Positions 18,736 to 32,725 of a stretch of 64,000 bases of DNA are shown here, piece after piece. Every line of letters starts with the position of its first letter. The first letter of the stretch is position 1. The translations under genes were made by a program, and so were the position numbers. Below the pieces are notes generated by a model, which was not told the DNA's origin, ran no database searches, and was given only the letters and a program-made list of their open reading frames with translations. Origin of the DNA: Candidatus Jettenia sp. AMX2. GTDB lineage: Bacteria > Planctomycetota > Brocadiia > Brocadiales > Brocadiaceae. The stretch spans positions 434,001-498,000 of the forward strand of contig CP129469.1 of the NCBI GenBank assembly GCA_030583665.1. The letters run 5' to 3'.

Positions 18736-19079
18736 TTTCTACTCCAATCTGATTTTCAAAATTTTGAATGTGGAAGCTCAATGTCAGAAGCTAAAAACGT
18801 GAAATGCACCCTGACATATAAGGATGGATTAAGCGAAGCGAATCCTCCAACCTGTTACTATGCTTCCAGCTTTTATTTTCAGCTTTTAGTTTACACGTAG
18901 GGCAGGCACCGCCTGCCAATAAAATAAATTCCAATGTACTCGCCTGAATTATTGGCAGACAATCCCCTTCCCTGCTAAGCTTGAAGCTAAAGCGGGAGAA
19001 ACACATTCCATCCGGTTTTCAGCTTCTGGCTTTGAGCTTTGGGCTTCCCAGCTTTAATACCTGAAAACAAGCTACAATC
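18736..19079. repeat. Repeat-rich spacer between the two glycosyltransferases
   Basis: This holds AGCTT-rich degenerate repeats (GAAGCTCAA, CAGCTTTTATTTTCAGCTTTTA, AGCTTGAAGCTAAAGCGG) and a short perfect palindrome GGCAGGCACCGCCTGCC at 18901-18917 followed by CAATAAAATAAATTCC. Similar fragments recur in other spacers of the window. No gene is supported. Confidence 0.5.
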
Positions 19080-21750: not shown

Positions 21751-22131
21751 ATGGACAAAAGCAACTGCGATATTAAGCAAGCGGTAATTTTAGCGGGAGG
21801 GAGGGGGATGAGATTGCGGCCGTTAACAGATCATCTTCCCAAACCACTGGCTCCTGTCAACGGTACTCCATTTCTGGGTTATTTAATTCATTCTATTTTT
21901 GAATCAGGAATAAAACATATCGTATTACTGCTTGGATACAAAAGTGAGAAAATTATTGATTACTGCAATCAATTTTCAGATAGCGAAATAAAAATAGAAT
22001 ATTCAGTCGGTAAAGTTGAGGAGGCAACCGGCAGAAGAGTAATTGATGCATATAACCTGTTGGACAAGAATTTTCTGCTTTTATATGCAGATAACTATTG
22101 GCCGATAGAACGAGATAAGATGGTTCGTATG
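21751..22131 (+). pseudogene. Sugar-phosphate nucleotidyltransferase, N-terminal fragment cut by an IS
   Basis: The signature AVILAGGRGMRLRPLTDHLP and KPLAPVNGTPFLGYLI mark the nucleotide-binding half of an NTP-transferase (HddC/RmlA/GlmU-like family) that makes nucleotide-activated sugars. The family is usually 230 residues or more; here only about 127 codons remain before the reading frame enters the ISNCY-like element at 22132. The C-terminal half is not found on the far side of the element, so sequence was deleted. The ATG at 21751 was chosen over an upstream TTG. It is probably non-functional. Confidence 0.8.
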
Positions 22132-23128
22132 TAGTGTCTGAACGAAAACGAACTTTTTATAAAAACGCGGGGGGCGGCTTTTTGCAATTTTTCGCACTGC
22201 TTCCGTGCCTTCTCCTGAAGCACGTTTCCCAGCTTGCGCAAGTTTGTAGCTAACACGCCCAATGCACAATATCTTTTAAAGGCCTTCAACCCTTTGTCCG
22301 GACACCTATCCAAGCCGTGATGCTCCAAACGATTGATATCCGATTCTACCGCCGAGTGCTTGTGCCTGAGCTTCTTAAACGTCTTACCCGATTCCTCTTC
22401 CTGCTCCGCCTTGTTCTTCTTGCCCTTCTTGGGCATGATTACCACTGGACTATACAAACCCAGCAACTCTTTGTTCTCTTTCTTATAAAAACCCTTATCA
22501 AAACTTATGCTCTTTATTGCGCCTTTTCCGTGGTGGCTCAACAACCTATCTGCCAAAGGGATTGACAATGATACATCCGCCTGTCCCTCCACAACCAAAT
22601 GGTCTACGATGAAACCCCACTGATCGCTTTTCACCAGAATATTATGGCCAAACTCCACCCTTTTGTTTGACTTGCCTTTGTACAGCCACTCCGTATGCGA
22701 CTCAAACAACGAATGAATCTTTTCTTCCGCCGGTATTGTCTCTTCCCGGATCACCCTTCTCTCCACAAGGTCTATCTGTTTATTCAACATCCCGTGAAAA
22801 TACTCCATGGCCTCTATTTTTTTTGCATGCACCTCTCCCCAGTTCGTCGTTAGCACCCGTTCGTAGATGGCTAACAGGATTGCTTCTATCTTTCCACTCA
22901 AACTCCACAATAATTCCAGGTAATTCCTCGCGTGTTCTTTCTTTATTGCTTCCTTATTTTTACCCCCGCCACCTGACGTCTTTCCGCTGATCCTCATCAG
23001 CTTTTTCAACTCCCTCCTCCAGTATTTCCTCTTGCGCCATCCCTTCCCCTCCAGAAGCCCTTCCTCTATAGCATCCTCTATCATGTCCAGACTCTTACGT
23101 CCCGCATCCCACAACAAATTCATATCTG

Positions 23129-23155
23129 CCTGCCTGAGCAATGCTCGCAGTCAGG
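23129..23155. repeat. 27-bp palindromic micro-insertion (CCTG...CAGG)
   Basis: This is an imperfect hairpin with CCTG/CAGG ends and an inner GAGC-AAT-GCTC stem. Its exact removal restores an uninterrupted transposase reading (HFPT-D-MNLLW) and eliminates an in-frame TGA. It is interpreted as a small inserted palindrome. Confidence 0.55.
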
Positions 23156-23457
23156 TCGGAAAGTGTACATTTGTCTCTAACACATACGTATCCACCTTAA
23201 TACACAGTCCTTCGCCTTTTTTTTAACCAATCGAGCCCACATGTTATCACCACTTCATTTATCTGCCTGATGGTCTCCTCATCCGACAAACCTATATTGT
23301 CCTTGATGCTCTGCATCGAAAACACCTTGGCCTTGCCAAATGTCGTCTCTACCCCCAGTATCTGCCTGATACGTTTGTGATGGTTGGCAAAATCCTCCAA
23401 CCTGTCATAATCCGCATCCAACCCCAATCTTACTAACGCCAAGACTATGATATGCCA

Positions 23458-23477
23458 CCTGTCTGCCAACAAGCAGG
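23458..23477. repeat. 20-bp palindromic micro-insertion (CCTG...CAGG)
   Basis: The sequence CCTGTCTGCCAACAAGCAGG forms an imperfect hairpin with CCTG/CAGG ends. Its exact removal joins GMDL directly to WHIIVLALVRLG, the expected family sequence, and restores the frame. It is the second such insertion in the same gene. Confidence 0.55.
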
Positions 23478-23876
23478 CAAGTCCATCCCGTTTCGACCCG
23501 TCTTTTTCTTCCCCTTCATTACCTTCGTCTCTACTATCCGGAATACCTCCTCGTTCAACTCCGGAGTAACAGAGATATGTTGCAATGCCCTCAGTATCGG
23601 TGGTAGCTCATCCCGGCTCTTTCATGGCAGTTTTACTTCCGAAATGGATATGGCTCCAAATTTCTGTTGCTGCTCAAATCATTTTCTCATGTTCTCGCGA
23701 ATGTCCTTTGGCTTTTTGGTTTATGAATCGAATATTTGGACTCTTTTACACAGGAATCCCTTTGTTTTCGCACTATTCTACCTTTTTACCAGTAACTATT
23801 CAATGCCTTTCATTAACTATTTTCTCCGGCTATGCCCTATTCTACAAGGCTTTGGCGTGTATCCGTCCAAACACTA

Positions 23877-28973: not shown

Positions 28974-30857
28974 TCCTTATCCAAGCGTGATTTTTTTACC
29001 GAGAGAGGTGAAGTTGGTTGAAATGCCCGAATTTACTGGTTAAAATGGGATTTGCAAAAAAACCAACAACCAGAAAAAGGGGCATTTCAGATGAGCAAAA
29101 AATCAGAACAGAAGTATAACAAAATACTCAGCAGAAGGAAACAAAAAATCGAAAGGCGACTGGGGCGGAAGCAGTGGGAAGAGCAAGACCGACCGATGTT
29201 CAGAGCGAGGAACATTCATTACGAGATAGCAGAAAGGAACCAGGCAATAAACTGTGGAGGGATAGGAGCAATCCATCAGATGGTGCTAAAATGCGGGTTA
29301 GTAAAAGAGATTGACGAGAAACTTGAATTGTTGAAGATGCACATGCCCTACCATGAATCAGATCATGTATTGAACATAGCGTATAATGTTCTTTCAGGGA
29401 ATATACGATTAGAGGATATAGAGCTGAATCGTCAGGATGAGGGGTATCTGAACGCAGTGGGAGCGCAGAGGATACCAGACCCGACGACAGCCGGAGATTT
29501 TACCCGGCGGTTCAGGAGAGAAGATATTCTAAAGCTGATGGAGTGCATCAATACAGGTCGGCTTCGTGTATGGAAAGAAGCGAGAAAGGAGATCCTTGAA
29601 GAAGCGCTGGTTGATATAGACGGTACGATAGCGAAGACATATGGTGGATGTAAAGAGGGGATGGACATATCGTACAAAGGGATATGGGGATATGCACCGT
29701 TAATCATATCGTTGTGGAATACGAAAGAGGTGTTGTATCTGGTAAATAGACCTGGTAACAAGCCGAGCCATGATGGGTGTGTGGAGTGGGTAGACCGTGC
29801 GATAGGATTGGTGAAGCCGTATGCCAGGCGGATATGTGTGAGAGGAGACACGGACTTTTCGCTGACGGAGAATTTTGATCGGTGGTCACGGGAGGTAGAC
29901 TTTGTTTTTGGGATGGATGCACATAAGGTTCTGGTAAGACATGCAGAGGAGTTACCGGGGAAAGCATGGAGGGTGTTAAGCCGTAAACCGAAATATAGGG
30001 TAAAGACCAAGGAGAGAAGCAAGCCGGAAAAGGTAAAAGAGCGGATCGTGAAGGAACGAGAATATAAGGATATTCGTTTGGCGAGTGAGCATGTGTCGGA
30101 GTTTGAGTATCGGCCAATGAAGTGTAAACAGAGCTATCGGGTAATTGTGCTGATGAAAAACCTGAGTGTAGAAAAGGGCGAGAAGGTGTTGCTTGATGAT
30201 ATACGATACTTTTTTTACATTACTACCCGGCGGGATATGACGGCAGAGGAATTGGTGGAGTTGGCAAACGGGCGCTGTGATCAGGAGAATGTGGTAGAGC
30301 AGTTGAAGAACGGTGTAAATGCGATGAAGATGCCGGTAAGGGATTTGGAGAGCAACTGGGCGTATATGGTCATGGCAGCGCTGGCGTGGAATTTAAAGTC
30401 ATGGTTTGGGTTGTTGATGCCCAACGCGGTGAGGGGAATGCAGGTACAGAAGATGGAATTTCGACGGTTTCTGAATACCCTGATTTTACTTCCCTGTCAA
30501 ATCCTGAAAACGGGGAGGAAGATCGTATACCGAATCCTTAGATATAATGACTGGCTGAAGGATTTCTTTGCCACGTGGGAGCGGATCCGTAGGCTGAAGA
30601 TGTGCATGAGAGAATAACAGATATAGGTGATAAAAGATGCAGGAAATGAAGCGGGAACGGGAGCGGTACCTTATCACTTTGCGATCATCCCCGATTTTAT
30701 TTTCCGATAAGGGTATTTTTCTTGTGAGTGGAGTCTTGATGCCGATTAAAATGAAAAAAAGTATCGAGAGTAGAAAAAATAATACAAATAATAGTACCCA
30801 TTACCGATTAAAACAGTGATAAGAGGCGAGGTTTATAAAACCTCGCTTGTTTTAGGT
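28974..30857 (+). mobile_element. IS1380-family element with CTAG target duplication
   Basis: The related ends TCCTTATCCAAGCGTGATTT and ACCTAAAACAAGCGAGGTTT (reversed) bound a 1884 bp element. CTAG is duplicated at 28970-28973 and 30858-30861. Removing the element restores EERL-VDSCYRSYPKGFVAN in the IS91 transposase. About 240 bases after the transposase are non-coding and end in a GCGAGGTTT-ATA-AAACCTCGC hairpin. Confidence 0.88.
29091..30617 (+). CDS. IS1380-family transposase (intact)
   Basis: The protein has about 508 residues from ATG 29091; the open frame extends to a TTG at 29052 without benefit. A DDE-type core is visible: LVDIDGTIAKTYGG, ICVRGDTDFSLTENFDR and ELVELANGRCDQENVVEQL (catalytic Glu region), typical of IS1380. 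No stop or frameshift interrupts it, so this is the only transposase in the cluster that appears functional and probably the latest arrival. Confidence 0.9.
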   Translation: MSKKSEQKYNKILSRRKQKIERRLGRKQWEEQDRPMFRARNIHYEIAERNQAINCGGIGAIHQMVLKCGLVKEIDEKLELLKMHMPYHESDHVLNIAYNVLSGNIRLEDIELNRQDEGYLNAVGAQRIPDPTTAGDFTRRFRREDILKLMECINTGRLRVWKEARKEILEEALVDIDGTIAKTYGGCKEGMDISYKGIWGYAPLIISLWNTKEVLYLVNRPGNKPSHDGCVEWVDRAIGLVKPYARRICVRGDTDFSLTENFDRWSREVDFVFGMDAHKVLVRHAEELPGKAWRVLSRKPKYRVKTKERSKPEKVKERIVKEREYKDIRLASEHVSEFEYRPMKCKQSYRVIVLMKNLSVEKGEKVLLDDIRYFFYITTRRDMTAEELVELANGRCDQENVVEQLKNGVNAMKMPVRDLESNWAYMVMAALAWNLKSWFGLLMPNAVRGMQVQKMEFRRFLNTLILLPCQILKTGRKIVYRILRYNDWLKDFFATWERIRRLKMCMRE

Positions 30858-30861
30858 CTAG

Positions 30862-31502
30862 TAGATAGTTGTTATAGGAGCTATCCGAAAGGATTTGTAG
30901 CGAATGTACAAAAGGGAGAAGTACCGGGTCGATATGAGAGTTTAGCGAGATATTTGGCGAAATACGTGGTGAGTCCGCCGATATCGCTAAAGAGAATAGA
31001 TGAATATGATGGAGAGAGAGTAAGGTATCATTATCGTTCGCATAAGACAGAGCGGGTAGAGCAAGAAGAAGTGGATGTGTATACGTTTATAGGGAGGATG
31101 ATCCAGCATATACTTCCCAAAGGGTTTAAGAGGATAAGATATTATGGAGTGCAGGCGACAAGGACATTTGAAAAGGTTAAGGGAGTTATTCAAAAAGCCT
31201 TGTCCAAGGTCAGCAGAGTAGTGAAGGGTGCGATAAAGATAATAGAGGAGAAGAGGTACAGAGGTAGATACAAGGATGGCACTGGTAAAGACCCATTTAT
31301 CTGTGAGCATTGTGGTCAAGAGATGGAAGTTTGTACAATATGGCATCCTCGGTATGGAGTGATTTATGACGAGTTGGATGAGATAAGAAGGGGTAAGTAT
31401 GAGCAAAAGGCGAAAGAAGCCATTGGAGAGGGAGGTAATAGGAGAGCCGTTCGGTCCTCCACCGAAGGAGTACAAATATCGTTGTTCAGTATGTGGAACT
31501 GA
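30862..31502 (+). pseudogene. IS91-like transposase, C-terminal segment
   Basis: This continues the IS91 reading after the IS1380 element: RYESLARYLAKYVVSPPISL, then VQATRTFEKVK and a C-terminal CEHCGQEMEVCTIWHP zinc-binding element. An ORF beginning at 30816 includes IS1380 end sequence and is not a natural start. Confidence 0.8.
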
Positions 31503-31635: not shown

Positions 31636-31662
31636 AAGTCCGCCGAAGGCGTTAAGTTCATC

Positions 31663-31757
31663 GTATAGGAATTTTCATTTTATGTAAGCGGTTTTGCGGG
31701 GAGGTGTTGTTATAAGGCTGGTGATGGTAATATGATACGATAGTGTTTGTCCCAGTT
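31663..31757 (+). repeat. 95-bp repeat, copy B
   Basis: This is a direct repeat of 26827-26921 with about six differences, but it is followed by unrelated sequence instead of a transposase. It marks either a second, truncated copy of the IS91-like end or the far boundary of the element. Confidence 0.7.
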
Positions 31758-31766
31758 CATGATCAG

Positions 31767-31799
31767 AACACTGTCAGGGTTGAGATTCCTGACAGTGTT
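31767..31799. repeat. Perfect 12-bp palindrome with 9-base loop
   Basis: The arms AACACTGTCAGG and CCTGACAGTGTT are perfectly complementary. It lies directly after copy B of the 95-base repeat and downstream of the minus-strand membrane gene. It could be a terminator (weak U-tracts on both sides), an IS-end hairpin or a dispersed palindrome. Confidence 0.6.
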
Positions 31800-31824
31800 A
31801 ATTTCCATTCGACCCTACGTGTGG

Positions 31825-32725
31825 CTACAAACAAAGTCGCCGAAGGCTTAATTTAACAGTTAACCATTCACCAATTTCTTGACCCAAATATTCTTCCTGT
31901 AAACGTGCTTTGATATCGTTCTCATTAATATTATGAATAATAATGTCTCTTTCTAATTGTTCTAATATGGATAATTTTGTTTTAGTGCTCTGTGTACGTA
32001 GCAAAGTAACAAAACCAAATGAAATTAAAGTAAAGTTAAAGGCAAGTGTTACTATTTCTACTCTTATATTTGGTGTTTTGATATAGTTAATAAGGAAATA
32101 TATATTAACAATTGGAATCTCAAAAATAATCATAATTGTAAATACCCATAATAATAAGTTTAATGCATTCCAAGAAAAGGATAAATTTCTTTGTGGGTAA
32201 TGTTAAAGGGAAAGGATATCCTTTTGATTTTTGGTAAATACCTAAAGAAATTCCTGTAATGAGAAAGAGAATGCTTGTTACTATAAAAAACCATTTGTTT
32301 AAAGCTAATTGATAAATATGATAATTAGATAAAATTACATTAGGGTAAGATATAAAATGTATGGTATAGATTGGGAGCAAAAGAATTAGAAAGAGCGTTA
32401 TTAAAATATCTATTAAGCCTTTAAAATCCAAAGTAAATGAATTCTTATGAATTCTATAATCAAAAGCTGTTATTGGAGAACTTGAAGAATATGTAAAAAT
32501 TAAAATACTGAAAAGTATAAGAATATGAATATGTGAGTAACAAATAAAAAAGGCATTTAATGAATTACTGTCATTTTTTATAATATTCAATAGTGGTATT
32601 GAATTCCAAGTAAGATAGATTATTCCAACTATTAGTGCCCAAACAGTAAAACCATCGTTTTTGTTACGATTGCTTACTCTATTATGCAACGTACGAACAT
32701 ATTCGAGATATTTATCGTTGTTCAT
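31825..32725 (-). pseudogene. Multi-spanning membrane protein split by a probable frameshift
   Basis: Two overlapping frames, 32120-32725 (201 residues) and 31825-32133 (102 residues), appear to be one protein. The first has an N-terminal cytoplasmic helix (NNDKYLEYVRTLHNRVSNRN) and about five hydrophobic segments. The second continues with two more and then a charged tail (SILEQLERDIIIHNINENDI). Read in the frame of the second ORF, the sequence before its ATG is also a good membrane helix (NALNLLLWVFTIMIIF), so a one-base shift near 32195-32215 is the simplest explanation. Alternatively they are two genes with a 14-base overlap. It is very AT-rich and its family is unknown. Its 3' end lies in a dispersed-repeat copy (GCCGAAGGCTTAATTTAA). 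Confidence 0.5.

Follow-up and report, generated by a model that had tools for sequence, protein, structure and literature searches.

What are two very small palindromes doing inside one transposase gene? In the window, by which we mean the whole 64-kb stretch of DNA analyzed here, the initial annotation had read two hairpins as independent insertions of one mobile or templated miniature palindrome family. Both palindromes were found, at 23458-23477 and 23129-23155, and the features concerned are the following:

23458..23477, + strand: 20-nt element CCTGTCTGCCAACAAGCAGG, composed as CCTGTCTG-CCAA-CAaGCAGG
23129..23155, - strand: 27-nt element CCTGACTGCGAGCATTGCTCAGGCAGG, composed as CCTGaCTG-CGAGCATTGCT-CAGGCAGG, an A-type variant
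22095..23700 (5' limit approximate), - strand: host gene, a degenerate ISNCY-type transposase with matches to NF033593

The host gene is indeed an interrupted ISNCY-like transposase, as had been claimed: NCBIfam NF033593 matched both of its fragments (1.3e-78 and 3.1e-16), and it is 63-65% identical to open frames of 522-526 aa in genomes G008, G010, and G016. It carries additional frameshifts besides the two insertions, and the 27-mer brings an in-frame TGA into it. For the empty-site test, the flanks of each hairpin were joined by script and compared with ISNCY copies from related genomes. The joined flanks aligned uninterrupted with 10 such copies at the 20-mer site (11 matches in another comparison) and with 11 copies at the 27-mer site, at 75-89% identity for both positions. 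The sole irregularity at the junctions was a 1-bp gap in one ISNCY copy at the 20-mer site. These results confirm that both hairpins are exact insertions, made at GCCA^CAAG for the 20-mer and at CCGA^CAGA on the - strand for the 27-mer. Removing them restores family-like sequence, as the initial annotation had proposed, and the intact IS copies, rather than carrying the same bases, are empty at these positions. No target-site duplication was seen at either insertion when the joined flanks were set against the ISNCY copies, and at 20 and 27 nt both elements are, as first described, far smaller than a MITE.

The 27-mer recurs with one mismatch at two further places in the window's genome (G000:C1:897001 and 2729955), which are copies of one IS1634-type transposase unrelated to ISNCY. 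There the hairpin is an exact 27-bp in-frame insertion of nine codons (LTASIAQAG) between VGDR and GMIK; 12 homologous IS1634-type copies lack exactly these 9 aa, and every alignment made agrees. Many IS1634-type homologues in related genomes are intact, with frames of 556-568 aa. One palindrome has thus inserted into two IS families that are unrelated to each other, both within a single genome.

What defines the family to which these hairpins belong? Its ends are fixed over 8 nt each (CCTGTCTG…CAGGCAGG), and the inner hairpin between them is variable and covarying; in the window, the 20-mer and the 27-mer each carry one mismatch to the fixed ends. Lengths run from 19 to 35 nt, with main forms of 20, 27, and 30 nt. 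The consensus 27-mer from related genomes is CCTGTCTGCGTGCNNCGCACAGGCAGG, and a 20-mer class with the center CCGA (CCTGTCTGCCGACAGGCAGG) is common among relatives. The window's genome has the 30-mer CGTGCGGTGACGCA and an A-type 30-mer, CCTGACTGCGAGCGGACTCGCTCAGGCAGG; 33- to 38-mers occur too. A 28-nt subfamily with a different inner sequence, CCTGTCTGnCGCGGCGAAGnCAGGCAGG, was seen in genome G570, from the phylum of Cecembia. The window hairpins are copies of one very small non-coding mobile element family.

Loose CCTG and CAGG ends alone are not diagnostic, because they are common by chance in the window (about 10 loose CCTG..CAGG hairpins within 64 kb) and show no excess in a 464-kb genome sample, in which CCTG ranks 45th of 256 tetranucleotides. 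The diagnostic features are the 8-nt ends, family membership, and empty sites. The genome-wide hairpin search suggested by the initial annotation had two outcomes: loose CCTG..CAGG hairpins gave no excess in the sample, but the relaxed pattern CCTGNCTG-N3..20-CAGGCAGG gave 45 matches in the window's genome, a few of which are one self-complementary place counted on both strands (counts for this genome rest on a genome pattern search and sampled stretches). Two other palindromes of the window that had been considered related proved to be something else. The one at 31767-31799 is not ended by CCTG and CAGG and is part of a repeat of about 200 bp (31654-31857) that lies downstream of an IS91-like (Y2_Tnp) gene and is 92-94% identical to six or more other places in the genome sample. 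The one at 18901-18917 (GGCAGGCACCGCCTGCC) has GGCAGG..CCTGCC arms in the opposite orientation and is a different type of hairpin; GGCAGGCACTGCCTGCC hairpins resembling it were seen at two further sampled places. We also observed a CRISPR-like array of about 99 GTCGCAATCCCTTCTAAATCAGGTCTTCTTTCATAC repeats elsewhere in the window's genome (L049, 4998-12929).

The covariation seen when distinct 30-mers and 27-mers are compared is consistent with a hairpin that has a bulge and a 4-nt CCTG/CAGG tag. In the best-supported fold, CCTGT pairs with ACAGG, a 2-nt bulge leads into the inner stem GCGN/NCGC, and the 3' CAGG is free. Double compensatory changes were present in 12, 12, and 13 sequences at pairs 5:22, 10:19, and 11:18 of the 30-mers and in 7, 4, and 10 sequences at pairs 5:19, 9:17, and 10:16 of the 27-mers; these cells count sequences, not events, and some 30-mers were entered by hand from genome-scan tables. 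A fully symmetric fold was rejected, with 0, 0, and 0 double changes at 5:26, 10:21, and 11:20 of the 30-mers and no covariation beyond one cell at inner pairs 9-11. The opposite strand reads the CCTG tetranucleotide directly 5' of the bulged hairpin, and when that strand of the 27-mer is folded as DNA, the bulged hairpin is recovered. The window's 20-mer folded as DNA no better than its shuffles.

How widely does the family occur? Across 392 Planctomycetota genomes, CCTGTCTG-N3..14-CAGGCAGG gave 368 matches versus 14 for the reversed control (both totals are sums over a table of matches), with the element missing from most close relatives. The corresponding counts were 63 versus 1 in 148 genomes of the phylum of Cecembia and 955 versus 0 in 48 host genomes (148 Mb) chosen as carriers; the highest load was up to 87 copies in 1.9 Mb (G063). 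An exact-pattern scan was run on 84,980 species, and viral contigs were searched as well. Among the matches listed, hosts belong to more than 15 named phyla and include one archaeon and phage contigs: Brocadiales and other Planctomycetota, Lentisphaeria, Kiritimatiellae, Verrucomicrobia, Latescibacterota, Nitrospinota, Nitrospirota, Methylomirabilota, Tectomicrobia, Anaerolineales, Deferribacteres, Desulfobacterales, Spirochaeta, Elusimicrobia, Omnitrophota, Stahlbacteria, Acetothermia, Neomarinimicrobiota, Parcubacteria, Actinomycetes, Gammaproteobacteria, Cecembia lonarensis, and a Methanosarcinales archaeon. The pattern is carried by 16 stretches of viral contigs; one 30-mer compared by BLAST with INPHARED phages and PLSDB plasmids gave no convincing match.

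Most hosts are metagenome-assembled genomes, as would be expected if the repeats were artefacts of assembly, adaptors, or binning, and single matches in metagenome bins, the archaeal one included, may be binning errors; many-copy hosts are not. However, copies are also present in single-contig genomes (G000, with its 45 relaxed-pattern matches, and G010, with 7) and in the isolate Cecembia lonarensis (Bacteroidota; 8 matches), flanks differ between copies, and the inner sequences covary. An artefact is hardly credible on these grounds. The family has inserted cleanly at hundreds of sites, in bacteria of many unrelated groups as well as in phages and an archaeon, and the single mobile family first proposed from two hairpins is borne out by the empty sites, the matches in its own genome, and the many phyla.

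The insertion sites follow a rule. After near-duplicates were removed, R^Y was found at 95 of 131 target sites, where 23% was expected (P = 1.6e-32). With nested sites also removed (n = 120), position +1 was C in 88 (P = 3e-28), +2 was A in 52, and +4 was G in 58 (P = 2e-9). The element thus inserts between R and CANG (R^CANG), in both orientations and without target duplication. Copies nested in other copies obey the same rule, for example at TGCA^CGCAGACAGG, with the element's own consensus as the empty site. Contiguous empty counterparts were found for 37 distinct loci, several of which are copies of one host repeat, and the only deviations from exact junctions at the checked loci were a few alignment gaps of 1 bp. 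Empty and filled pairs include HsdS (L296 versus L292), phage genes (L105 versus L103), and two sites in a TATACT..AGTATA MITE of Ca. Scalindua RBC_AMX3 (G037). The window itself holds an empty site for a copy in a relative:

31040..31200 (approximate), no strand assigned: empty site in the IS91-like gene, filled in relative G009 (L059)

The joined flanks of that copy match the window near 31.1 kb over 158 bp at 84%, and the gene (30816-31502) has a Y2_Tnp match of 2.4e-21.

Hitchhiking in larger repeats accounts for part of the copy number: most 30-mers of the window's genome sit in a TTCCTCCCC..GGGGGAGG repeat, and most 27-mers of the Scalindua genome sit in its MITE. At loci L277-L286 of the window's genome, 30-mers lie within another hairpin-like repeat, TTCCTCCCC[..]CTCGATGGGGGAGG, and some of these repeats hold a second copy of 33-35 nt inserted at GGGG^GAGG. 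In Anaerolineales SuakinDeep (G429), a 27-mer and a 24-mer stand head-to-tail with no spacer in several places (e.g., C42:15641-15691).

Could the copies have arisen with no dedicated enzyme at all, through template switching or repair and passive spread in IS, MITE, and phage DNA? Released hairpin oligonucleotides, for example, might be captured at nicks or breaks by CAGG/CANG microhomology. Consistent with such a route, the CANG target is similar to the element's own CAGG repeat, no single enzyme family was found in all hosts, many copies in the window's genome and in the Scalindua genome ride larger repeats, and some copies lie at palindrome centers (7 of 131 independent sites versus 0.8 expected). 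Microhomology repair would, however, yield ragged ends and truncated copies, whereas both junctions are exact at the checked loci, the 1-bp gaps aside, and identical ends and length classes recur across phyla. We therefore regard this route, oligonucleotide capture included, as rather unlikely. Insertion at palindrome centers was rejected as a general rule since, although enriched, it covers only those seven of the 131 sites.

Many copies lie within genes. Thirty of 160 copies lie in open frames that are 150 aa or longer and extend at least 50 aa to either side of the copy, some of which may be chance frames in GC-rich DNA. Genes supported by Pfam around the insertion encode HsdR (L169, within HSDR_N, and L167), an HsdR-like C terminus (L234), Eco57I-type enzymes (L275 and L198), HsdS (L296), ribonucleotide reductase (L319), phage terminase and capsid frames (L105), and an SNF2 helicase (L231); in-gene copies are frequently translated as LSAC-x-AQAG. 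In-frame insertions of the family are present in restriction-modification and housekeeping genes that are open. Because the scan targeted 27-mers, the excess of lengths divisible by three cannot serve as unbiased evidence for frame selection. We observed that restriction-modification genes make up 6 of the 11 Pfam-checked gene frames with in-frame insertions (L169, L167, L234, L275, L198, and L296).

The extreme sequence conservation across great phylogenetic distance might instead mark a selected functional site, such as a methylation, recombination, Chi-like, or regulatory hairpin site, and not a mobile element. Against such a role stand the precise presence and absence at homologous sites, the copies inside genes for transposases, phage proteins, and restriction enzymes, the nesting of copies in one another, and the lack of the element in most close relatives; we consider it very improbable.

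What, then, moves these hairpins? Our main reading, to which we give a probability of roughly 60%, is a very small non-coding mobile element that would be moved in trans by an HUH-type enzyme and spread on horizontally moving DNA. The element would be a non-autonomous single-stranded DNA (ssDNA) hairpin acted on by an HUH-type nuclease/strand-transferase, in the manner of IS200/IS605 ends and REP sequences. The CCTGCCTG strand would present CCTG directly 5' of the bulged hairpin foot, and insertion would take place directly 3' of a CNTG-like tetranucleotide serving as guide and cleavage site. Because 27- and 30-nt copies contain no stop codon in most frames and are tolerated inside genes, the element probably crosses phyla by riding horizontally moving DNA (IS elements, restriction systems, and phages); a copy inside a MITE or IS would also be multiplied passively. 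The bulged hairpin with a tetranucleotide on its 5' side, insertion on the 3' side of a short tetranucleotide, and the lack of duplication (PMC8266576, PMC6006769) point to a trans-acting HUH enzyme as the likeliest single mover by our analysis, at somewhat less than an even chance.

Several results weigh against the HUH step. Y1_Tnp was not found in 5 of the 48 hosts, among them Latescibacterota 277c_44 (69 copies), Nitrospiraceae UBA665 (32 copies), and Spirochaeta LUC14 (18 copies), although drafts may miss genes. The number of Y1 genes did not correlate with copy number across hosts (Spearman 0.20, P = 0.17), and the tag is not GT[AG]G. None of the approximately 54 Y1 loci read has a flanking pair of elements; one has an element, inserted inside the gene. 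At L252 (G063), a family copy near the 3' end of a Y1 transposase gene is part of a larger palindromic repeat. No shared partner gene emerged among ORFs at 96 loci, which had phage genes alone in common, and the positions of the copies in the window's genome relative to GC skew revealed no evident replication-strand bias. It is less likely than not that a mobile DNA of 20-30 nt, lacking an autonomous partner, crosses phyla and domains and inserts into genes precisely and often without harm by a mechanism that involves no Y1 transposase and no reverse transcriptase.

Alternatively, a small structured transcript could be copied into DNA by reverse transcription, with the copy then entering the genome at a break or by reverse integration, a route that Elhai et al. 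2008 reportedly suggested for the small dispersed repeats (SDRs) of cyanobacteria. Structure kept by compensatory change, the absent target duplication, the self-nested copies, and a size equal to that of cyanobacterial SDRs would all suit an RNA intermediate. The conserved structure is, however, equally compatible with ssDNA, and RVT_1 was undetected in three of six hosts tested, and two of these three have 69 and 85 copies (draft genomes); we think this route unlikely. An Rfam search with one copy-bearing locus returned just a sub-threshold chance match.

How does the family compare with known small repeats? In openly accessible papers, an exact-sequence and topic search returned no account of the element, which may have been described elsewhere. 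It would rank among the smallest mobile elements known. Its in-frame insertions of 9-10 residues in working genes are a source of protein change, the element is a marker of DNA exchange between phyla, and the fixed ends, the R^CANG rule, and the many empty and filled pairs make the movement of tiny repeats directly testable.

MITEs (70-300 bp, with terminal inverted repeats of known ISs and target duplication) do not accommodate the family, given its size and the lack of duplication at empty sites. Rickettsia palindromic elements (RPEs) are about 100-150 bp long and specific to Rickettsia and its relatives. Like the present family, with its insertions in HsdR, HsdS, Eco57I, ribonucleotide reductase, terminase, and capsid frames, RPEs are palindromic and lie in frame in protein-coding genes (PMC3733652). 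Membership among them fails on size and taxon, since the copies here are 27-30 nt (9-10 codons) and occur in many phyla. IS200/IS605 elements insert 3' to a short tetranucleotide, with no duplication of the target. The family shares these traits with their subterminal hairpins, in which an ssDNA hairpin has a 5' guide tetranucleotide (PMC6006769), but it is a single hairpin with no transposase gene between two ends. A non-autonomous IS200/IS605 derivative would have a related Y1 transposase with matching ends in its genome; Y1 genes were present in 43 of the 48 hosts, and no shared ends were found.

REP sequences are imperfect hairpins of 20-40 nt with a bulge and a tetranucleotide beside the hairpin foot and lie sometimes inside palindromes (PMC3733652; REP and IS200/IS605 architecture, PMC8266576 and PMC6006769). 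The family resembles REPs and REPINs in its imperfect bulged hairpin, its size in the 20-40 nt range, the tetranucleotide at its hairpin foot, and its occasional position inside palindromes. Unlike REPs, whose tag is GT[AG]G, it has CCTG in all consensus forms, has no flanking RAYT (TnpA-REP), is not mainly extragenic, and is one sequence family over many phyla. REP membership was rejected for two reasons, the lack of the GTAG tag and the lack of RAYT linkage, the latter judged from the approximately 54 Y1 loci and the five (draft) hosts without Y1.

The nearest kind is the cyanobacterial SDRs. Elhai et al. 2008 (Genome Res 18:1484) are said to have described them in Nostoc and its relatives, at 21-27 nt, as confined to a group of cyanobacteria. 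Like them, the family is small, forms a hairpin with compensatory changes, is non-coding, lies inside minitransposons and its own copies, and is inferred to have moved recently. By the same description, it is unlike SDRs (Elhai et al. 2008, cited in PMC3733652 and PMC3116915) in probably having other ends, in occurring in many phyla, phages, and an archaeon, and in being often in frame in genes. Here a single sequence family is common to bacteria of many phyla, to phages, and to an archaeon, which sets it apart from REP and SDR repeats; this cross-phylum range, together with its behavior inside genes, distinguishes the element from known small repeats.
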